The notes under the pieces: generated by a model
Told to the model about the DNA's origin: nothing
What the model saw: only the letters and a program-made list of their open reading frames with translations
The model's database searches: none
Part shown: piece by piece, positions 19,038 through 60,616 of the stretch
How positions within the stretch are numbered: position 1 is the first letter of the stretch
Layout of the letters: every line of letters begins with the position of its first letter
Origin: Planctomycetota bacterium
GTDB taxonomy: Bacteria; Planctomycetota; UBA8108; UBA1146
DNA length: 64,000 bases
Assembly (NCBI GenBank): GCA_014240375.1
Contig: JAAZXB010000002.1
Coordinates: 1 to 64,000, forward strand
Reading direction: 5' to 3'
Made by a program: the position numbers and the translations under genes

Positions 19038-22000
19038 TTATGGACAGGCCGGATCGTCTTCACAATCGCTATCATCACAATCGACTAAACCGTCCACGTC
19101 GTCATCGAGACCGTTGTCACAGATCTCCAGTGGACGTTCTGTAAACCCTACCGTCACGCTATCGATCAGGGGAGTCGATCCCAGATTGGCCGGATCTGCG
19201 TAGAGGAAGTAACGCATCACCACCGACTGAGGGTCTTTCAACTTCGAGGGCTCGGAAACGATTCCCAGCAAGGGACCAGGCTGTCCCGATGCGGTGTCAC
19301 TGTGACCGTAGCCCTCGTAGAGCACCTGCAGGTTGAGTGCGCTTCCATCCAGAAGGTCGGCCACTGCAGGATCCACTAACAGACCAGAATTCAAGCCTCC
19401 GTCATCGCTGACCAGCACATATGGAGTCGATGCAGCAGAACTGAGATCGGTGCCAAAGAGCGAGAAAGAAGCCACTGACGGAGCCGGAATGACGTCGATC
19501 CCGGTATCGGAGAAGCCCAGCGGAGTCTCGACTCTCACCCACCCCTCTGCTCCACTGCCACCAGAGTTGGTGGAGGTGGTCGGATAGGGACTACCTCCTG
19601 GGTACTGCTGATTGGCGAATCCTCCGCTGACGTCGAGGATGGCACCCGGTTCAACGATGACGACGCTTCGCCCGCGAACCCGGATCGCACCCCCTGCACC
19701 CGCACCACCGGAAGCCGCTCCCTCAGGAGCGAGGTATGACTTCCCTCCGGTGGCAAAGATGCCAGCGGTAGAATGAATCACCATCGGTCCACTGGCGGTG
19801 AGTTCGAAGTATCCACCACCACCACCACCACCCGATCCCGGAATCGAGGTCGATGTGTCAGTATCGAAGAGCGCACCGCCGCCGCCTCCACCGAGGCCGC
19901 CGACATTCAGCGGAAGGCTGGACCCCGGGTTGTCAGGATCGGGAACGATGAAGGATGCAGTACCATAGGCACTTCCCCCTTGCCCCGCATCGGGGAGTTC
20001 TGGAAGGGTACATGCGCCGGCACCGGTTCCATTCGATCCAGAATCGGCATAGCCACCGCCACCACCGCCACCGACCGTGCAGGTCAATCCGGATCCTTCA
20101 GCAGCTTGGCCGCCTGTCGATGCCGCGATCAGATCGGGAGGAATGGTGCCGCCTGGATCTCCTCCACCTGGGACTCCGTAGATCAGGTTGGCAGGAACTC
20201 CGTCAGGAATCCCTCCATCCTCGCCATCGGTGAGGAGCCCTGACTGGGCCAAGCCACCCTGGCCCCCGACTCCTCCACCGGCACCTGCAGCACCACCTGA
20301 AGCGATCACTGGATTGACCGGGTCGGTCAGATCAGGGATGCCTCCCGGCAATCCGCTCACATCCACGGTTCCCGACAGATCGACACTGCCGGCAGATCTC
20401 AGGATGAGTGAGTTGAGTCCTACCGCCTCGAGTAAGGCGAACTCCTCGATGATGATCGAAGCGAATTCAAATACTCCATCGACGCCGTTGTTGTAAATCA
20501 AACTGCCCGCACCATTGACGATGGTTCCCGCATCGGTATCGGCCAGATATGGACTATCGGCAGCGGTCAAGAACATCACCGTGGTCCCGACACCCACCTC
20601 GATCAAGCCGGAGGAGACTCCAAAGGAGGTCCCGGCACCGACTCCGAGAGGTGGGAAGAGGGTGTTCACATCAATCGTTCCAGGAGCCACCAGGGCACCA
20701 TTCATCTCGAAGCGAACCTGACCTTCTGCGCCCGCTCCCCCCTTCTGGATCTGCGATCCATTGGGGGACTCGAGCTGGACTCCACCGAATCCTCCGGTCG
20801 CCTGAATCGATGCCGAGGCACCCACTTCCAGGTCACCGGTCGCTCTCACGATCAATGTTCCACCACCGCCACCGCCACCGGCTCCGGCAGTCGTTCCCTG
20901 AACGCCGCGCTGGCCGCTTCCACCGGAGAGCAAGATGGAGCCGTTGATCCGCATCGAACCATCGACCACGATGCCCAGGGCTCCGCCGCCGCCGCCGCCG
21001 CCACCGCCATTGTTGACGACGGGGACTGCGGTCGTGGTGGCGCGCCGTGTTCCGGCTCCACCACCGCCTCCACCACCGCCACCCCTGAGTTGAATCCCCA
21101 GGGAATCGGAGGTCGGGAAGCCGCCATCTCCATTGTGGCCTCGATGGGTGAGGTTATAGGACGTGGTGATGATTCCTGGCTTGCCGTGGGTTCCACCACC
21201 ACCGCCACCGGCATTGCCGGCTCGAGTGGCGTAGATCGACGCCGGGATCACCAGGTCGAGAGAAGTACCGCCTCCACCTCCGAATTCTCCTGCAGTCGAC
21301 GGAGTGACACTCGAGATCAGCTGGGTGGCTGCATTGAGTTCCATCACCGAACCCGATCCGCCAGTACCGCCGCCAGGACCGCCCAATCCACCGGCAGCAG
21401 CAGTCGTCCCCGCCACCCCCTCCAGACCATCTTGACCGGAGAGGTCGAGGGTTCCCGACATCAGGAAGACCAGATCATCCGGATTGCCGGTGCCGGAGCA
21501 GCGAATCACCACCGGCGCATCGTTGGGACCGGTCAGTTGGACGATCGCATTCTCCTCCAGATTGAAGGTGCGCATCTGAAACTCGCCAGGAGTTCCCCCG
21601 GCAAGGATCTCGATCGGCGGATCTTCCGTCACATCGTAGATTGAGCCGTTGAGGCTATTCATCTCGTAGGTGCGATTCGCTTGAAGTGTCACATCGACGG
21701 TGCCCGACCCGACCGCGTAAGACGAGTTCGGCTCGGGAGAGAGCGCATTGAACTCGAGCAGGCCACCCCCCCAGATCGCAGAGCCCGCCAGTGGATCATA
21801 GTTGGTGAGGGTGTTGAAACTCTCGACCAGGGCTCCATCGGCAGAGCCCCCCAGGGAGTTATTGATGACCAGTGCACCGGAAGTCCAGATCCCTGCAGCA
21901 TCTTGTAACGCAGTGCTGGGAACCGGATCCGAAAGTTGCAACCTGATCCGGACAATGGTCAATCCTGGGGGAACATCGAGGCGGCTATCCCACTGAAAGG

Positions 22001-23096
22001 TGAACCTCTGCCCGGGAGCCACGGCAAACGGAGTGGTATCACTGAATTCAAATCCACTCGGGACAAAGCCCTGTCCATCCCAGGTTCCCTCGAGTTCTGA
22101 ACACTGGGTCCAGTTGTCAGAGTTGATCGGATCCTCGAACTCTGGAATCGCATCAAATCGTCCTCGGACCGGCGAACAGAGGGTCACGAACTGAAGTGGG
22201 ATCACTCCCGCCCGTACTCCTCCCGGAATCAGACCTGCAACGGTGTAGGGCGGGACCGCAGAGAATTCCCCCGGTGCCAGAACCGTCGCCAGGGGCACCT
22301 GGATCACGGAACTATTGAGAGGCAATCCTGCAGTGGATGCCGTGACCGAGATCGACAGTGCAGATGTATCTCCGGAGGGGATGATTCCCGTCGGCAACTC
22401 GACTCGAACCGCTTCCATGTCGGAAGGAAGAGTGTAGTTGACCCCGCCGGTACCGGTCTGGACGCTGGGCGATGGCTGGCTGGTGGTTCCATCATCGACA
22501 TTGGCACTGGTGACCGAACTCAGGTTGTAGCCGTAAAGCACCACCACATTGTCCGGAACAATCGTACCGCCAGCGTTCTGGAAGATGGTATTTCCATCAT
22601 CGCCCACCGCAAATCCAACCAGTTCCGGGGCTCCGGTAAACACATCGGCACCGGAATAGATTCCGTTGACGAACAGTTCGACGGTACCGCTGCGAACACC
22701 GCTCGGAACGACCACCTGGAGGAACGAAGGCGCACCGCAGGCGTTCGGATCGGTCGTGTCGATGGTAACAGAGGTCACGTAGCCCTCGAGGATGGTCTGG
22801 TTACTGAAACTGCGAAACAGAACCCGGTTCTGTTGCAGCACAGGATCAAAATTCACCCCTTCGAGAGTCAACGTCGTGCCGCCGGTACCCTGGATCGGAT
22901 CGGGGGTCACATTGTTGAGGGTGGGTGAAATACAGTCGGGTGGCTCGGGTGGCTCGGGTGGAGCCGTGACCGGTGGATCACCGAAACCCGCTCCAAAGCG
23001 GTGACCTGTATCGCAGCCACCGATGAACACCGAGAGTGCGAAAATCGTCAGCAGAAAAATTCTTGATGTACGAGTCGACATGTCCGCGTTGAGCAC
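19038..23096 (-). CDS. Large Gly-rich surface lipoprotein with TIG domain and C-terminal Asp/Cys metal-binding motif
   Basis: A 1352-residue exported lipoprotein. Signal: SRIFLLTIFALSVFIGGC, lipobox Cys near residue 28. An IPT/TIG-like Ig domain follows (ISPTLNNVTPDPIQGTGGTT), then several beta-rich regions and very long glycine-rich stretches separated by strands such as LDLSGQDGLEG and GSLIYNNGVDG, reminiscent of bacterial surface beta-helix proteins. The last 30 residues, CDNGLDDDVDGLVDCDD and SDCEDDPACP, match the putative metal-binding (MopE-type) motif found at the ends of planctomycete and myxobacterial surface proteins. The GTG at 23096 is preferred because GGAG lies 7 bases upstream; an ATG at 23081 is the alternative. 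Expected location: outer membrane surface. Function unknown. Confidence 0.8.
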   Translation of the reverse strand: MLNADMSTRTSRIFLLTIFALSVFIGGCDTGHRFGAGFGDPPVTAPPEPPEPPDCISPTLNNVTPDPIQGTGGTTLTLEGVNFDPVLQQNRVLFRSFSNQTILEGYVTSVTIDTTDPNACGAPSFLQVVVPSGVRSGTVELFVNGIYSGADVFTGAPELVGFAVGDDGNTIFQNAGGTIVPDNVVVLYGYNLSSVTSANVDDGTTSQPSPSVQTGTGGVNYTLPSDMEAVRVELPTGIIPSGDTSALSISVTASTAGLPLNSSVIQVPLATVLAPGEFSAVPPYTVAGLIPGGVRAGVIPLQFVTLCSPVRGRFDAIPEFEDPINSDNWTQCSELEGTWDGQGFVPSGFEFSDTTPFAVAPGQRFTFQWDSRLDVPPGLTIVRIRLQLSDPVPSTALQDAAGIWTSGALVINNSLGGSADGALVESFNTLTNYDPLAGSAIWGGGLLEFNALSPEPNSSYAVGSGTVDVTLQANRTYEMNSLNGSIYDVTEDPPIEILAGGTPGEFQMRTFNLEENAIVQLTGPNDAPVVIRCSGTGNPDDLVFLMSGTLDLSGQDGLEGVAGTTAAAGGLGGPGGGTGGSGSVMELNAATQLISSVTPSTAGEFGGGGGTSLDLVIPASIYATRAGNAGGGGGGTHGKPGIITTSYNLTHRGHNGDGGFPTSDSLGIQLRGGGGGGGGGAGTRRATTTAVPVVNNGGGGGGGGGALGIVVDGSMRINGSILLSGGSGQRGVQGTTAGAGGGGGGGTLIVRATGDLEVGASASIQATGGFGGVQLESPNGSQIQKGGAGAEGQVRFEMNGALVAPGTIDVNTLFPPLGVGAGTSFGVSSGLIEVGVGTTVMFLTAADSPYLADTDAGTIVNGAGSLIYNNGVDGVFEFASIIIEEFALLEAVGLNSLILRSAGSVDLSGTVDVSGLPGGIPDLTDPVNPVIASGGAAGAGGGVGGQGGLAQSGLLTDGEDGGIPDGVPANLIYGVPGGGDPGGTIPPDLIAASTGGQAAEGSGLTCTVGGGGGGGYADSGSNGTGAGACTLPELPDAGQGGSAYGTASFIVPDPDNPGSSLPLNVGGLGGGGGGALFDTDTSTSIPGSGGGGGGGYFELTASGPMVIHSTAGIFATGGKSYLAPEGAASGGAGAGGAIRVRGRSVVIVEPGAILDVSGGFANQQYPGGSPYPTTSTNSGGSGAEGWVRVETPLGFSDTGIDVIPAPSVASFSLFGTDLSSAASTPYVLVSDDGGLNSGLLVDPAVADLLDGSALNLQVLYEGYGHSDTASGQPGPLLGIVSEPSKLKDPQSVVMRYFLYADPANLGSTPLIDSVTVGFTERPLEICDNGLDDDVDGLVDCDDSDCEDDPACP

Positions 23097-23580: not shown

Positions 23581-25359
23581 GTGAGACGATTCATTCGTCG
23601 AGTCTTTGGAAAGGAACTGGAGGGGATCCGTAGACTGTTCGGGTTCCTGAGGAAGCGATCTGCGCCGCCCTCATCTGTGCCTGAAAGGCCCAATACTCCC
23701 TCTCAGGACGACCCTGGTGGTCTCCCCCCTGTCCGACAGAGACCTCCTCCAGCCGCGAAAATGGCCGGGCTGAACCCTCGCCGGAGCCCCCCCCAACCGT
23801 CTGCGTCACGCTCTCGCCCTGCCCCCTCCGGCAAGCCGAGGAGAGCCGCTTCTGGGCCGGGTAAACCGCATATTCCAGCCGATCGGGTCGGTCCGCTCGA
23901 CCGAGAAATCGCTCACTCTCCCTCCGATCCGTTCACATCGGTGGTGGCCTCGGTGGTGTTTCACCTGCTGCTACTGCTACTGCTGGTGCCGCTGCTGATC
24001 CCCAAGGCTCCCGAACCTCCCAAGACCTGGAGCGTGGTGGTCACCATGGAGCCAAAGAAGACCAAACCGGTGATCGACCCGCTGCCCACCCCGCTGGAGG
24101 AACCCGATCCACCGCCGATCCCCGAAACGAAACCGGTCGAGGAGCAGACCCCAGCCGCGGACTCGGAAGTGGTAGCCGAGCCTCCCGCGAGCGAATTCGG
24201 CATGCCCCAGGGAGCCGAGGGAAGTCGTAGAAGTGGCACCGCTCGTCAGCGGGCGCTGGCTCAACAGGGTGGGAATGGTGCAACAGAAAGAGCGGTGAAA
24301 GCGGGACTCGATTGGCTTCTGCGCCACCAGGACAGCGATGGCAGCTGGTCTCCCGATCAATTCCACAAGAACTGTAGCGATCGGGTAAGTCCCTGTTCGG
24401 GGGCCGGCTATCGGGAGCATCGGGCAGGGATCACCGCCCTTTCCTTGCTGGCACTGCTGGGAGATGGCCACCTGCCCCGGCAAGACCACGACCCTCTGGA
24501 CGATGCGACTCATCGGGCACTTCACTGGTTATTGCAGCACCAGGACCCGAGCGGTTGTATCCGCACCGACCCATCGAGTGGAACGAGAAACCTGTATGAC
24601 CACGGCATCGCGACCTTTGCCCTTTGTGAGGCGGCCCAGTGGACCTCCGATCCCGAAATCGATGGGGCGGCTCGACGGGCACTCTCCTTCCTCGAGGCCA
24701 GTCAGCAAGCGGGAGGCGGATGGGACTACACTCCAAAGATCTCTCTGAGAAATGATCTCTCCATCACCGGCTGGCAGATGCTAGCGATCCATGCCGGCAT
24801 CGAGGCGGGAATCCTGCCGAGCCGGAAGACCATCGCCTCGATCGAGAGATACCTCCAGCGAGCCATCGACCCGCAGGGCAGATCGACCTACTCGGATCGG
24901 GGTCGCGGCAGAGGTCGCCAGGGAATCGGAATCGATGCGGTGGGCTTGCTCTCGATGCTGGCGCTGGGCCACTCTCCCGTATCACAACGTAGCCTCGAGT
25001 GTGCTCACCGCATCGCCGACCATCCTCCTCGACCGGAGTTACGAGCACAGTGGGACCAGCACCCTCAATCGATGTATTACTGGTACACCGCAACACTGGC
25101 GCTGTTTCATGTGGGTGGAGAACCCTGGGAACGGTGGAACCAGCAGTTGCAACGGATGGTCTTGCCGCTTCAGCACAACTCCACCGATGCCGGCGGATCC
25201 GATGCCTCCGGATCCTGGGATCCCGATCCAAACTGGATCGGAGCGGCCGGCGGAAGGGTCGCCCAGACCGCTCTCGGAGTGCTGACTTTTGAATCCTACT
25301 TTCGTTACACTCCGATTCACCTTCGTCTGGGCATCGCCCGCACTCCCCGTGATCGGTGA
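23581..25359 (+). CDS. Membrane-anchored Pro-rich protein with prenyltransferase/squalene-cyclase-type repeats
   Basis: A 592-residue protein. About 110 residues rich in Arg and Pro lead to one membrane helix (SVVASVVFHLLLLLLLVPLL, near 119-140), then a Pro/Glu/Lys-rich spacer (EPKKTKPVIDPLP, PPPIPETKPVEEQTP) like that of TonB. From about 239 to the end are alpha/alpha-barrel repeats of the squalene cyclase/thioester-domain type: AGLDWLLRHQDSDGSW, HWLLQHQDPSGCI, RALSFLEASQQAGGGWDYT. Such proteins are frequent in Planctomycetota and are usually annotated prenyltransferase/squalene oxidase repeat, but no catalytic DxDD was seen. The GTG at 23581 follows GAGAGGAGCAC; the frame is open to 23524. 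The nnrE gene follows 9 bases later. Confidence 0.72.
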   Translation: MRRFIRRVFGKELEGIRRLFGFLRKRSAPPSSVPERPNTPSQDDPGGLPPVRQRPPPAAKMAGLNPRRSPPQPSASRSRPAPSGKPRRAASGPGKPHIPADRVGPLDREIAHSPSDPFTSVVASVVFHLLLLLLLVPLLIPKAPEPPKTWSVVVTMEPKKTKPVIDPLPTPLEEPDPPPIPETKPVEEQTPAADSEVVAEPPASEFGMPQGAEGSRRSGTARQRALAQQGGNGATERAVKAGLDWLLRHQDSDGSWSPDQFHKNCSDRVSPCSGAGYREHRAGITALSLLALLGDGHLPRQDHDPLDDATHRALHWLLQHQDPSGCIRTDPSSGTRNLYDHGIATFALCEAAQWTSDPEIDGAARRALSFLEASQQAGGGWDYTPKISLRNDLSITGWQMLAIHAGIEAGILPSRKTIASIERYLQRAIDPQGRSTYSDRGRGRGRQGIGIDAVGLLSMLALGHSPVSQRSLECAHRIADHPPRPELRAQWDQHPQSMYYWYTATLALFHVGGEPWERWNQQLQRMVLPLQHNSTDAGGSDASGSWDPDPNWIGAAGGRVAQTALGVLTFESYFRYTPIHLRLGIARTPRDR

Positions 25360-25368
25360 AAGGAGCCG

Positions 25369-26100
25369 ATGTTTCAGCCTGAAGATTGCACCCCGGAGAA
25401 GATCCGAGAGATCGACCGGAAAGCACTGGAGGAGTTCAGCATTCCAGGCCTGATCCTGATGGAGCACGCGTCGATTGGAATCGCTGAACGAGCCATCGAT
25501 CTACTGGGATCCGCAACCTCGACCGACCCTTCCTGGCAAGTCACGATTCTCTGTGGACCGGGCGGCAATGGCGGAGATGGATTCGCCGTCGCTCGACACC
25601 TCCACGGAGCGGGCTGGGATGTCACCATTCATGACCTGGCTCCCGACTCGGGCCATGCCGATCGCCAGACCCATCGCAGGATCTGCATGGCACTCGGGAT
25701 GACACCGATCGAATCGATCCCCGTCGCCGATCCGGTGACAGATTCCGATCTGATCATCGATGCCTTGCTAGGGAGTGGCACCGACCGTGCCCCGGGCCAC
25801 CCGATCGATCGTGCCATCGAGTGGATCAACCGACAATCGTTGCCAGTACTCTCGATCGACCTGCCATCGGGGCTGGTGGCCAGCAACGGCGAGGCTCCGG
25901 GAGCCGTGGTCGAGGCATCCTTGACGGTGACCCTGTGCATACCTCACCTGGGGTTGATGCAGGGAGAGGGCCCCGGCCATACAGGACAGCTGTGGATCTG
26001 CCCCATCGGGGCTCCCGCAGCCTTACTCCCGCCGAATGCCCCGGTATTCCCGCCACGAACGAGCCCCCTACCGGCAAATCCCATCTCCCTCGAGCAGTGA
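25369..26100 (+). CDS. nnrE: NAD(P)H-hydrate epimerase
   Basis: A 243-residue YjeF N-terminal-domain protein that interconverts the R and S forms of damaged, hydrated NAD(P)H so that they can be repaired. The motif GPGGNGGDG at 63-71, the preceding LILMEHASIG (usual M.NAG position) and DLIIDALLGSGTD are all present, and SIDLPSGLVASNG matches the family's DxPSG.....G. The dehydratase (NnrD) domain found in fused bacterial enzymes is absent, so that activity must be encoded elsewhere. A strong AAGGAG site precedes the ATG; it follows the prenyltransferase-repeat gene by 9 bases and probably shares its transcript. Confidence 0.9.
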   Translation: MFQPEDCTPEKIREIDRKALEEFSIPGLILMEHASIGIAERAIDLLGSATSTDPSWQVTILCGPGGNGGDGFAVARHLHGAGWDVTIHDLAPDSGHADRQTHRRICMALGMTPIESIPVADPVTDSDLIIDALLGSGTDRAPGHPIDRAIEWINRQSLPVLSIDLPSGLVASNGEAPGAVVEASLTVTLCIPHLGLMQGEGPGHTGQLWICPIGAPAALLPPNAPVFPPRTSPLPANPISLEQ

Positions 26101-26177
26101 CGATGTAGAAATAGCCTCGATCCGGTATGATGGAGGGGGTGTGGTACCCGGCATCGGCAATCAGGTCGATCCACACC

Positions 26178-26232
26178 ACCAGACCAGACCAGACCAGACC
26201 AGACCAGACCAGACCAGACCAGACCAGACCAG
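26178..26232. repeat. Eleven tandem copies of ACCAG in the leader of the PDZ gene
   Basis: Eleven perfect head-to-tail copies of the pentamer ACCAG (55 bases). The array ends directly at the ribosome-binding site AGGAGG of the next gene, whose ATG is at 26245. The unit is not a multiple of three and lies outside the coding region, so copy-number change would alter leader length, not the protein. Confidence 0.97.
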
Positions 26233-26244
26233 GAGGAAACCCGG

Positions 26245-26814
26245 ATGAATCTGTTCGAGAAGTTACTGTCCGGAGTGTTCACCCTGCTGATCCTGGCTGC
26301 CATCATCTGGGGAGCAGTGGTGGGACTCCCCAGTACCGTTCCCACCATCTCGATGCATTCAGAAAAGATCTCCGAGCAACAATACATGACCGAGATCACC
26401 GCAGAGCAACGACAGGAGCTGACCGAGATCCTCACCAAGGCCACCTCGGAAGGGTCCGGCTCGAGACGCCGCCCTCAATCTGAGGTCTACAAGATCAACA
26501 AACCCCTCCTCGATCGGATGGGCAATCTCAACGAATGTCGCCGCGAATTGCAAAATGCTTCGAGCGAGGTTCAGGAGGATGGCTCATTGAAGATCTTTGG
26601 TATCCAGCGGGGAAGTTTGCTCGAAAGAGTCGGCTTGAGAGAAAACGACATCTTGCGCTCGGTGAACGGAATCAAGCTCGACTTCAATGCCATCGGAGAT
26701 TGCCTCGATGCCCACGGGAACAGTCTCACCCGTCTGACCGCAGGGAATCCTGTGGTGATCGAGATCGAGCGCAGGGGCTCCCCCATCGCGCTCGTCATCG
26801 ATCCACCACTGTAG
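26245..26814 (+). CDS. GspC-like PDZ domain membrane protein
   Basis: A 189-residue protein with one N-terminal membrane helix (residues about 8-28), a variable linker and a C-terminal PDZ domain (about 110-185): LKIFGIQRGSLLERVGLREN then DILRSVNGIKLDF, ending VVIEIERRGSPIALVID. This is the layout of the inner-membrane component GspC of type II secretion, though no other gsp genes lie nearby, so it may be a free-standing relative. The ATG is preceded by AGGAGGAAACCCGG, immediately after the ACCAG repeat. Converges with the sigma-54 regulator gene. Confidence 0.72.
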   Translation: MNLFEKLLSGVFTLLILAAIIWGAVVGLPSTVPTISMHSEKISEQQYMTEITAEQRQELTEILTKATSEGSGSRRRPQSEVYKINKPLLDRMGNLNECRRELQNASSEVQEDGSLKIFGIQRGSLLERVGLRENDILRSVNGIKLDFNAIGDCLDAHGNSLTRLTAGNPVVIEIERRGSPIALVIDPPL

Positions 26815-26858
26815 GGAAACCACACCTCCCTACGGGCCAGATTCACTGCTGATTCGAC

Positions 26859-26904
26859 CTACTGTGAATCAGATCTACTGTGGATCAGAACTACTGCGGA
26901 TCAG
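26859..26904. repeat. Three imperfect copies of a 16-bp unit at the end of the sigma-54 activator gene
   Basis: CTACTGTGAATCAG, CTACTGTGGATCAG and CTACTGCGGATCAG occur at 26859, 26875 and 26891, with a 16-bp period. The third copy contains the stop codon of the minus-strand regulator gene; the other two lie in the 76-base convergent gap. Confidence 0.85.
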
Positions 26905-27940
26905 CGGCCTTCTTGCAGGCTACCGTCCGGTTGTAAATCGTCTTCACATTGACTCCCAGGTCTCGCGCTGCACGAGTCTTATTTCCGCCGTGGTAGTTGA
27001 GAACCTTTTCGATGTGAAAGTCCTCGACCTCCTTGAGGGTCATGTCGACCGGGTATCCGGTCCCATTCAGTCCGACCTGCTCCGCCGCCGGGATCACCTG
27101 TATCGGTGCTGCAGCGATCTGCTCCCGGATCATCTCACCATTCACTTCTTCGCCACCGCTCAGAAGCACGGAACGCTCGAGGACATTTTCCAGTTCACGG
27201 ATATTTCCGGGCCAGTTGTGCTGGATCAAGACTTCGACCGCACTGGAAGTTAGCGACGGCACCGTGATCCCACGGCCTCGAAGACGATTCAGCACCGACT
27301 CAACGATATGAGGCAGTTCAGCCTCGCGCTCGCGAAGAGGGGCCAGTTCGACATGAACCACATGAACTCGGTAGAAGAGATCGAGGCGGAAACGACCCGC
27401 GGCCACCTCGTCACGTAGGTTTCGATGGGTCGCAGCGATGATGCGAACATCCACTGCCTTGTCCTCATTGGAACCAACAGCACGAATTCTTCCCGATTGA
27501 AGTACTCGCAGTAACTTCGCCTGAGATTCCATCGGCAATTCGCCGATCTCATCGAGGAACAGGGTTCCGCCGGAAGCACTCTCAATCAGCCCGACCTTAT
27601 CTTTATCGATCCCGGTGTATGCTCCCTTCATCGCTCCGAATAGTTCGCTTTCAATCAGCGAACCGGGGATGGAACCGCAGTCGACCGCCACCCATGGGCC
27701 GTCGCGACGAGCACTGGTCTGGTGAACCAGTCGTGCGATCAAGTCCTTACCGGTGCCGCTCTCCCCTCCCACCAAGATGGTGGAATCGGTCGGAGCCACG
27801 GCAGAAAGAGTTCTCAAAACCCGTAGGGTTCTGGGATCATTTCCGGCCACGAAGATGTCTTTCCCACCCGACTCGTTGAAGACAGGAAGGTGGAGAACTG
27901 ATTTCTGGGTCATACCCGACTCTGCTAGTGGTGAATTCAT
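26891..27940 (-). CDS. Sigma-54 dependent transcriptional activator (AAA+ and Fis-type HTH)
   Basis: A 349-residue enhancer-binding protein. After a short N-terminal segment without a recognisable sensor domain comes the AAA+ core: Walker A GESGTGKD at 59-66, the sigma-54 contact loop GAYTGI at 106-111 (canonical GAFTGA), Walker B TLFLDEIGE at 126-134, and GNIRELENVLERSVLL. A Fis-type helix-turn-helix ends the protein (NKTRAARDLGVNVKTIYNR, about 315-335). The last residue of the contact loop is Ile instead of Ala, a deviation in the element that touches sigma-54. The ATG overlaps the stop of the HD-GYP gene (ATGA), so it is third in a coupled three-gene regulatory operon. Confidence 0.9.
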   Translation of the reverse strand: MNSPLAESGMTQKSVLHLPVFNESGGKDIFVAGNDPRTLRVLRTLSAVAPTDSTILVGGESGTGKDLIARLVHQTSARRDGPWVAVDCGSIPGSLIESELFGAMKGAYTGIDKDKVGLIESASGGTLFLDEIGELPMESQAKLLRVLQSGRIRAVGSNEDKAVDVRIIAATHRNLRDEVAAGRFRLDLFYRVHVVHVELAPLREREAELPHIVESVLNRLRGRGITVPSLTSSAVEVLIQHNWPGNIRELENVLERSVLLSGGEEVNGEMIREQIAAAPIQVIPAAEQVGLNGTGYPVDMTLKEVEDFHIEKVLNYHGGNKTRAARDLGVNVKTIYNRTVACKKAADPQ

Positions 27941-40638: not shown

Positions 40639-40659
40639 CGTCTGAATCTCACCATCAAT

Positions 40660-40704
40660 GCTCACGACATCTTTGCTCACGACATCTTTGCTCATGACAT
40701 CTTT
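40660..40704. repeat. Three 15-bp tandem repeats upstream of radC
   Basis: Copies of GCTCACGACATCTTT at 40660, 40675 and 40690; the third differs by one base (C to T). On the minus strand in the radC frame they would read as SKDVV-type pentapeptides. They lie 22 bases upstream of the chosen radC start. Confidence 0.9.
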
Positions 40705-40768
40705 GCTTTCGAGATGAATGGAATCGACCCCCGTCGTTTCCCACTGCGGGGAAGTGCATCTGCGCGTA

Positions 40769-40828
40769 TCCAATGAATCATCCAATGAATCATCCAACGA
40801 GTCATCCAACGAGTCATCCAACGAGTCA
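40769..40828. repeat. Five 12-bp tandem repeats upstream of radC
   Basis: Two copies of TCCAATGAATCA followed by three of TCCAACGAGTCA, perfectly spaced. On the minus strand in the open radC frame they translate to a repeated DDSL/DSLD tetrapeptide. The region is between the lipoprotein stop at 40922 and radC. Confidence 0.92.
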
Positions 40829-49483: not shown

Positions 49484-50076
49484 CACTTTCTCTCCTCGTC
49501 TCCAGGGGACACTTCGGAAATTCCAATCGGTCAAGGAGGGGCCTTTCTACCCGGACCCTGACTTCTCGGAATGACTCCGATAAAATGGGGATTAACAAAA
49601 AATGTAAGTAAACAAGTCAGGAAGACCCAGGAGCCGGTCCAGGGGTGAACCGAATCCAGTATCTACCCGACAACAATTGCCGGTTATGTGGCGCTAGGAA
49701 GAGGTAGAACTGACCGGGCGTGAACCCGGATCTGCTGAGGAGTCGTGTCGGGACTCCTGTCTTCGAGTCTCGACCGTATCACTCATTGTCAAACATGTCT
49801 ATATACAAAAGCGTTAACAAAGAGACGCTGCAGACTAGAGCAGCACTCGTGACGAAGACGGCTCACCAGAATCACCGTGATTTCCGGCAACATGTGCCGT
49901 ATTCCGGCAAGCATTACTTCCTTCACCACGGACCCACACCACGGACCCACACCACGGACCCACACCACGGACCCACACCACGGCGGCCGCCATCGATTTA
50001 GCGAGGTCTCGATTGGAAGTGCCGGCTGTCGCTGCTGGGGGTCAGGAGAAGAGGAGGAGGACAGGAAGATAGAGCT
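49484..50076. other. Leader region of the 47.7 kb unit, with repeats and hairpins
   Basis: About 590 bases without a credible gene. It contains two adjacent stem-loops (CCGGG..CCCGG near 49713-49729 and AGGAGTC..GACTCCT at 49738-49758) and the 13-bp repeats described separately. The promoter of the 49483 gene should lie here; hexamers were not identified. Confidence 0.5.
49924..49983. repeat. 13-bp tandem repeats (about 4.6 copies)
   Basis: CACCACGGACCCA repeated head to tail from 49924, four full copies and a partial one. Non-coding, between two genes of the cohesin/dockerin array and about 90 bases from a terminator. Confidence 0.93.
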
Positions 50077-59798: not shown

Positions 59799-60428
59799 CG
59801 AGTTTCCCTCCTCAAGGAATTTCATGGGGCCACTGGCGAATTCCATCTCCGCTTCAGATTCGAAGCGATCGAGAAATCAGCGAACTGACCGTTTCTTCAA
59901 AAGTCCCAAATTATTGACTTACCCAGCCCATGGATCCCGAACTCTCGGGATCGCAATGGATAAGAAGCGTTGGAAAGTTTGTGCCGATAATGATCGGCCA
60001 AACAAAACCACATCTCCTCAACACACCCACACCACACGTTTAAAAATAGGGCCTGGTTACCGATTGGCTTCAAGGCGCTGTTCTTCGCAAGGACGACACC
60101 ACTCACTCGGATTATCGGTCTTGCATGCTGGTGGCGAATCCACCCGATCTTGACCAAGACTCTTCTTCTTGACTGAACTGTCTATCCTGTACATCCCTAA
60201 CGATAGACGCATTTCTACGTCTTCACAATTGACTTATTTTCGGCTCCAGGAGCAAAACAAGCCGCGAAAAGACGCTCTCAGCCCCCCCCCCTTTCGCGAC
60301 CTTAACCTGTTTCAAAATGGTCCTTTATCCCCAATCCACCCATCGACCACACCCGCTTTCGGAGCGGCTTTGTCGGGAACGAGCTGAAAAAATCTAGTTC
60401 TAGAAACTCGGGAATCACCCAAATTTGA
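59799..60428. other. Leader region of the 57.9 kb unit
   Basis: 630 bases without a credible gene, preceding the ATG at 59798 on the minus strand. It contains a run of nine or more C near 60280 and AT-rich stretches. No tRNA or other RNA gene was recognised. The adjacent 16-bp repeat array is listed separately. Confidence 0.45.
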
Positions 60429-60616
60429 GGGATCTGACGAGGGAGGGAACTGACGGATGAGGGAACTGACGGAAGAGGGAACTGACGGAAGAGGGAACTG
60501 ACGGAAGAGGGATCTGACGGAAGAGGGATCTGACGGAAGAGGGAACTGACGGAAGAGGGATCTGACGGAAGAGGGATCTGACGGAAGAGGGATCTGACGG
60601 AAGAGGGATCTGACGA
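60429..60616. repeat. 16-bp tandem repeat array, about 11.75 copies
   Basis: The unit is GGGAACTGACGGAAGA or GGGATCTGACGGAAGA (two variants, AAC or ATC). Units are exactly 16 bases apart from 60429 to 60604, followed by a 12-base partial copy. No spacers exist, so it is not a CRISPR array. It lies 44 bases beyond the terminator of the type A gene at 60735 in the direction of its transcription. A GA-dinucleotide run follows at about 60645-60660. Confidence 0.95.

Follow-up and report, generated by a model that had tools for sequence, protein, structure and literature searches.

Eleven perfect ACCAG units (26178–26232, plus strand) stand directly before the Shine-Dalgarno sequence of a gene for a PDZ protein in the 64,000-nucleotide stretch of marine planctomycete DNA analysed here (the window). 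The array is probably a young microsatellite produced by lineage-specific expansion, with a copy number of at least 11 and an effect on the PDZ gene that would be nil or small and graded, and it does not seem to have evolved as an on/off switch. The window is the start of one contig (C43) of a draft genome of 120 contigs and 3.39 Mb; gene calls in it are longest-ORF guesses.

The repeat, its leader and the gene behind it

TRF describes the array with a period of 5, 11.0 copies and 100% matches. Dinucleotide shuffling of the window, repeated 100 times, gave a longest perfect period-5 run of 16 bp (mean 13.15); in the actual sequence, the next such run after the array measures 13 bp. The eleven perfect units reported in the first-pass annotation are thus borne out by TRF and by the shuffles, but eleven is a lower bound, since the tract is as long as the assembly k. 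Three exact units in tandem occur at one place only in the 3.39-Mb draft genome (all nine overlapping matches lie inside the array), so the unit does not precede many genes as in a network of the TAACTGA type. Of the 51 perfect arrays listed for 484 kb sampled from the genome, it is the sole pentamer array with five or more copies.

The sequence downstream of the array reads GAGGAAACCCGG-ATG. The Shine-Dalgarno sequence AGGAGG (26231–26236, plus strand), 8 nt before the ATG, is made of the final AG of the array and the GAGG that follows, so that the repeat does end at the AGGAGG of the PDZ gene, as had been claimed. The span given for it, 26178–26245, is too long, as the array ends at 26232, and a span that runs to 26245 also covers the ribosome-binding site (RBS) and the A of the ATG. 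The region had also been called otherwise free of simple repeats, which holds for short units nearby but not for two longer ones found by TRF, a 16-bp unit in 2.9 copies (26859–26904) that starts 44 bp past the PDZ gene, and a 15-bp unit in 2.1 copies at 25184. Elsewhere in the window, an ORF of 1352 residues (19038–23096, minus strand), glycine-rich and lipoprotein-like by eye, has CCA/CCG simple repeats on the plus strand.

The PDZ gene (26245–26814, plus strand) encodes a protein of 189 residues with a hydrophobic N-terminus. Its match to Pfam PDZ_6 (29.2 bits) lies above the cutoff of 27, and the PDZ half of the earlier label "GspC/PDZ gene" stands. In turn, NCBIfam GspC_delta (NF041515) aligns with the C-terminal part only and scores 41.2 bits, under the curated cutoff of 150 for membership in the GspC family of type II secretion; since this match is partial and far under the cutoff, it is safest to call the product a GspC-like PDZ protein. 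A search of solved structures with the same protein returned weak matches only, the best of them (E 0.0059) to PDZ domains of a zinc metalloprotease. The gene upstream (25369–26100, plus strand) carries an NAD(P)H-hydrate epimerase domain (YjeF_N in Pfam; NCBIfam TIGR00197 above cutoff).

Between the two genes, the hexamer TATGAT (26126–26131, plus strand) is identical in all five aligned genomes of the same genus and reads TACTAT in a sixth genome, G006. This conservation makes it the probable -10 element of the PDZ gene's own promoter; a strict sigma-70 scan found no promoter. With the transcript start placed about 7 nt after the -10, the leader would be 107 nt long (26138–26244, plus strand), and the folding predictions given below depend on both of these inferred positions. 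The array lies upstream of the start codon and downstream of the probable -10, within this presumed leader, which upholds the earlier expectation that slippage would alter leader length. A known RNA element in the leader was rejected, the only Rfam match in 26000–26400 being a chance one to mir-331 (E 3.2; 15.2 bits, where the gathering score is 80), and so was a terminator or attenuator, with no terminator-like site in 26000–26950, where 1.0 would be expected by chance. No relatives of the exact start region were found in viral contigs.

Copy number and the assembly k

Eleven ACCAG copies make 55 bp, a length equal to the k that the assembler appears to have used. A k of 55 follows from the self-overlap of contig C35, whose first and last 55 bases are identical, together with tandem tracts of that length at other contig ends. 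Of 80 contig termini examined, 38 were masked and 42 were usable. Seven of the latter end in tandem tracts, four of them exactly 55 bp long (periods 11, 3, 15 and 18) and the others 85 bp (55 + 2 × 15), 97 bp (55 + 42) and 36 bp. The masked termini belong to 19 small contigs (C1–C10 and C12–C20, 509–645 bp) in which the 400 bases inspected at either end are all N. Contig C35 itself (33,954 bp; its first 20 kb are piece L087 and its last 500 bases piece L108) is probably circular, given the shared ends. Six of its eight scanned ORFs match phage families, including a tape measure protein, a Sak4-like annealing protein and an exonuclease, which makes a tailed phage or a phage-plasmid, binned together with its host, the probable identity of the contig.

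Internal perfect tracts of at least two copies and at least 30 bp (one shorter and three terminal tracts were set apart), sorted by length relative to k and the period p, number 16 from k-2p to k-p, 19 from k-p to k, 11 from k to k+p, none from k+p to k+2p, and 2 beyond. There is thus a cut-off at k+p, which is not absolute, since the two longest tracts exceed k+2p. Simulated graphs with k = 55 resolve n = 5, 9, 10 and 11 as one path, whereas n = 12, 13, 15 and 20 are split into a 60-bp loop and a pair of arms that both terminate in 55-bp tracts. Eleven is therefore the largest number that the assembly could hold without a loop, and since longer arrays can collapse to it, the true copy number is at least 11; a mixture of copy numbers is possible.

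The coincidence of array length and k also raises the question of an assembly artefact, an array absent from the organism. We consider this extremely improbable, because the simulated graphs report n = 5, 9, 10 and 11 unchanged and loop only the longer arrays, so that the assembly shortens arrays but does not create them, and because alignments to two close relatives, G003 (93.9% identity) and G004 (95.3%), run through the locus. The "k141" in the name of the record matching G003 presumably denotes a larger k, in which case the lack of an array in G003 would not be an effect of k = 55. More generally, copy numbers of perfect repeats in draft assemblies are unreliable for tracts of length k or more, and an array whose length is exactly k should serve as a warning.

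Relatives and the origin of the array

The search covered 59 genomes, the window's own (G000) included, and the PDZ protein was matched in 25 of them, that is, in its own genome and 24 relatives. Four exact ACCAG units were found in two of the 59, G000 and G025, and the five units of the latter lie at an unrelated place, inside an ORF of 251 residues; the array was rejected as a family-wide motif on these grounds. Of 17 loci whose upstream regions were aligned (the window's own and 16 from relatives), only the window's own has the array. AGGAGG is found in the array-less G003, G004, G001 and G006, and GGAGG in G002. The record QNYK01000087.1 (L038), titled "Bacillota bacterium", fits G002, which is congeneric with Planctomycetota MAGs, and is probably mislabelled.

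The three nearest species (G003, G004 and G001) have no array, but one to three exact ACCAG units along with degenerate ones. Written in pentamers, the leader reads ACCAG CCCAG AGCAG GAGG in G003, ACCAG GCCAG ACCAG ATGGT CGATC GAGAG ACCAG GAGG in G004, and ACCAG AGCAG ACCAT GAGGT CGATT CAGCG ACCAG GAGG in G001. In both G004 and G001, ACCAG-like units are followed by a 15-nt segment and then by ACCAGGAGG, and since the two species share this layout, it is probably ancestral. The segment, absent from the window and from G003, could form a small hairpin just before AGGAGG (GGTCGATCGAGAGACC in G004, GGTCGATTCAGCGACC in G001); the predicted fold of G001 shows such a hairpin, whereas that of G004 favours other pairs.

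In the roughly 5 kb that surround the locus, G000 shares 94.8% identity with G003, 95.9% with G004 and 81.9% with G001. The tree of the same region is (G000,(G003,G004)), with a support of 82 and G001 further out, and with this branching the array is a derived state. The picture is that expected of a microsatellite born by slippage, in that a perfect array of a short unit is absent or short in close relatives, in which seed units are present. Judged from these sequences, the array would be a lineage-specific expansion from seed units already beside the RBS. The ancestral leader would have had a small number of ACCAG-like pentamers directly ahead of AGGAGG; in the window's lineage, the intervening sequence would have been lost and the pentamer amplified, we infer by replication slippage, within a leader segment that may tolerate changes in length. 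Such an array is probably hypermutable, and its copy number probably still changes.

Other tandem arrays of the window were compared with the same species. TRF lists 37 rows for the window, from which six arrays with flanks anchored in relatives were chosen by us rather than at random; unit numbers of the relatives were taken from printed tract lengths. For the array at 26859, the window's 2.9 units compare with about 1 in G003 and 3.9 in G004; that at 49924 has 4.6 against about 2.6 in both; that at 40659 has 3.3 against about 2.4 in both; that at 40768 has 5.1, with about 4.8 in G003 and 6.8 in G004; and that at 60427 has 11.8 against 6 in G004, with no anchor in G003 and G001 outside the comparison. 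The array at 25184, within an ORF of 611 residues, is 32 bp long in the window, G003 and G004 alike. In G001, the places of the arrays at 26859, 49924 and 40659 are anchored without such an array, that at 25184 is shorter, and that at 40768 has no anchor. Array length thus differs between sister species in five of the six chosen arrays, so that array turnover is common here. The arrays at 40659 and 40768, within an ORF of 379 residues, may be coding, and those at 60427 and 49924 lie inside doubtful ORFs of 123 and 100 residues, respectively. The five that differ are minisatellites with units of 12–16 bp (26859–26904, 49924–49983, 60427–60615, 40659–40707 and 40768–40828) and are potential markers for strain typing.

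Predicted effects of copy number and known repeat systems

The first-pass annotation had proposed that changes in copy number could switch expression, and this proposal is not supported. Every n of at least 1 retains AGGAGG and its 8-nt spacing to the ATG, and since the array lies downstream of the probable -10, promoter spacing is unaffected by slippage. Eight folds were predicted, differing in the assumed ends of the RNA. In the basic fold, from the presumed start to +45, the predicted unpaired probability stays at 0.39–0.40 for the RBS and 0.15–0.19 for the ATG over n = 1–25, and near n = 11 it barely moves; between species, that of the RBS ranges from 0.01 to 0.57. The cost of opening -20 to +15 changes gradually, from 21.3 kcal/mol at n = 1 to 14.0 at n = 11 and 13.0 at n = 25. 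On these models, a structural on/off switch is not predicted, and a graded effect of copy number is possible.

Such a graded effect could arise if the unstructured array acted as a single-stranded standby site that parts a 5′ hairpin from the start region, with more copies giving gradually more translation and slippage supplying natural variants. The basic fold leaves most of the array in the assembled leader unpaired, between the 5′ hairpin and a hairpin of the start region, and a single-stranded standby area is known to govern translation up to a plateau (PMC3936740). The cost of opening -20 to +15 falls steadily from n = 3 in the basic fold, and opening costs drop from n = 9 up in seven of the eight folds; that of the RBS alone, in the basic fold, goes from 8.05 kcal/mol (n = 9) to 5.98 (n = 13), or roughly 0.5 kcal/mol for each added unit near n = 11. 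The size of the effect varies with the assumed RNA ends, the change in the -20 to +15 cost between n = 9 and n = 13 ranging from +0.07 to -1.9 kcal/mol per unit, with falls of 0.4 to 1.9 in RNA extended to +100. However, the same cost hardly changes at n = 11 in the basic fold (14.02 at n = 11, 13.93 at n = 12) and rises slightly in the read-through RNA to +45. Nor is the array conserved, and the presumed leaders of the species span 64–107 nt (107 in G000, 64 in G003, 86 in G004, 91 in G001, 92 in G002 and 66 in G006). We therefore regard tuning by a standby site as rather unlikely. The reading preferred here, a young microsatellite whose effect on the PDZ gene would be nil or small and graded with promoter, RBS and spacing intact, has points against it as well: the opening costs that fall with n from n = 9 up in seven of the eight folds, by up to 1.9 kcal/mol per unit for -20 to +15, and that of the RBS alone in the basic fold; the ATG in the read-through RNA to +45, whose openness goes up from 0.155 at n = 3 to 0.393 at n = 11; the absence of a second pentamer array of five or more copies from the 484-kb sample, so that the array's place may not be pure coincidence; and the two internal tracts above k+2p, by which long arrays are not always shortened by assembly.

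A different kind of switch would work through the reading frame. (ACCAG)n contains no stop in any forward frame, and a candidate upstream ORF (26141–26248, plus strand) starts at a GTG and runs for 35 codons through the array to a TGA that overlaps the ATG of the PDZ gene (ATGA). If this ORF were translated, n = 2 mod 3 would end it at the ATGA and pass ribosomes to the PDZ gene, n = 0 mod 3 would carry it past the start out of frame, and n = 1 mod 3 would fuse it to the gene. The outcomes do cycle with n mod 3 across n = 6–17; the ORF ends at the ATGA with n = 11, is fused with n = 10 and runs out of frame to +239 with n = 12. Endings at ATGA recur in G004 (the same GTG, 28 codons) and in G001 (ORFs of 26 and 29 codons), and two ORFs of G006, 33 and 12 codons long, end in TAATG. 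A pentamer switch in a leader peptide is known from Streptococcus gallolyticus (PMC3894217). In G003, however, the equivalent GTG runs for 179 residues out of frame, and in G002 only a 2-codon ORF ends at the gene start; a conserved upstream ORF was rejected, as these two genomes have no comparable ORF ending there. Starts, lengths and peptides differ across the six genomes, so that no conserved leader-peptide ORF of the pil1 type runs through the repeat in them; the 33-codon ORF of G006 begins upstream of that genome's presumed -10; the GTG of the window has no room for an RBS from the presumed transcript start, though a read-through RNA would give it GGAGG; and the true n is uncertain. Translation of this ORF through the array is thus very doubtful, coupling that follows n mod 3 is equally so, and we give as little credence to a self-varying translational switch in this uncultured planctomycete, with three expression states from single-unit slips under a constant RBS and promoter. 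If the copy number varied within the species and altered output, the locus would be of the contingency type in free-living marine Planctomycetota; a narrow literature search found no paper on such loci in this group.

Synthetic designs of repeat-tuned RBSs place the repeat between the Shine-Dalgarno sequence and the start. The ACCAG array shares with them a repeat beside the RBS as a potential tuning part, but here the spacing from Shine-Dalgarno sequence to start is constant. The gene uspA2 of Moraxella catarrhalis, which encodes a surface protein, carries an AGAT repeat in the 5′ untranslated region ahead of the ORF (the tract is listed 132 bp upstream), with a copy number that differs between isolates and mRNA measured against repeat number (PMC7302503, PMC4679880). 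Both systems have a short tandem repeat before a start codon, with copy number varying between isolates in uspA2 and between species for ACCAG. The array described here differs in abutting the RBS and in its product, for which the domain search found PDZ_6 and a GspC-like match below cutoff rather than the surface antigen or adhesin that is usual, if not strictly so, for the uspA2 type.

The repeats of Beggiatoaceae are TAACTGA direct repeats upstream of start codons, in 169 sets in one genome, beside which a canonical RBS is rare (PMC4679880). They lie, like the array described here, a few nucleotides from start codons, with no particular RNA structure predicted; ACCAG, unlike them, is found at one locus and with AGGAGG. 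In turn, the tract in the sabA promoter offers an example of an effect of repeat number before a gene (PMC4081817). In the pil1 locus of S. gallolyticus, a GCAGA repeat forms part of a leader-peptide gene that is followed by a transcription terminator (PMC3894217). The two loci have in common a pentanucleotide repeat upstream of a gene and a reading frame that shifts with a change of one unit; at the ACCAG locus, however, there is no terminator-like site in 26000–26950 and no leader peptide conserved in the six genomes, and the RBS abuts the array, leaving no terminator hairpin between repeat and gene. It is in position that the ACCAG array resembles the repeats of uspA2 and pil1.
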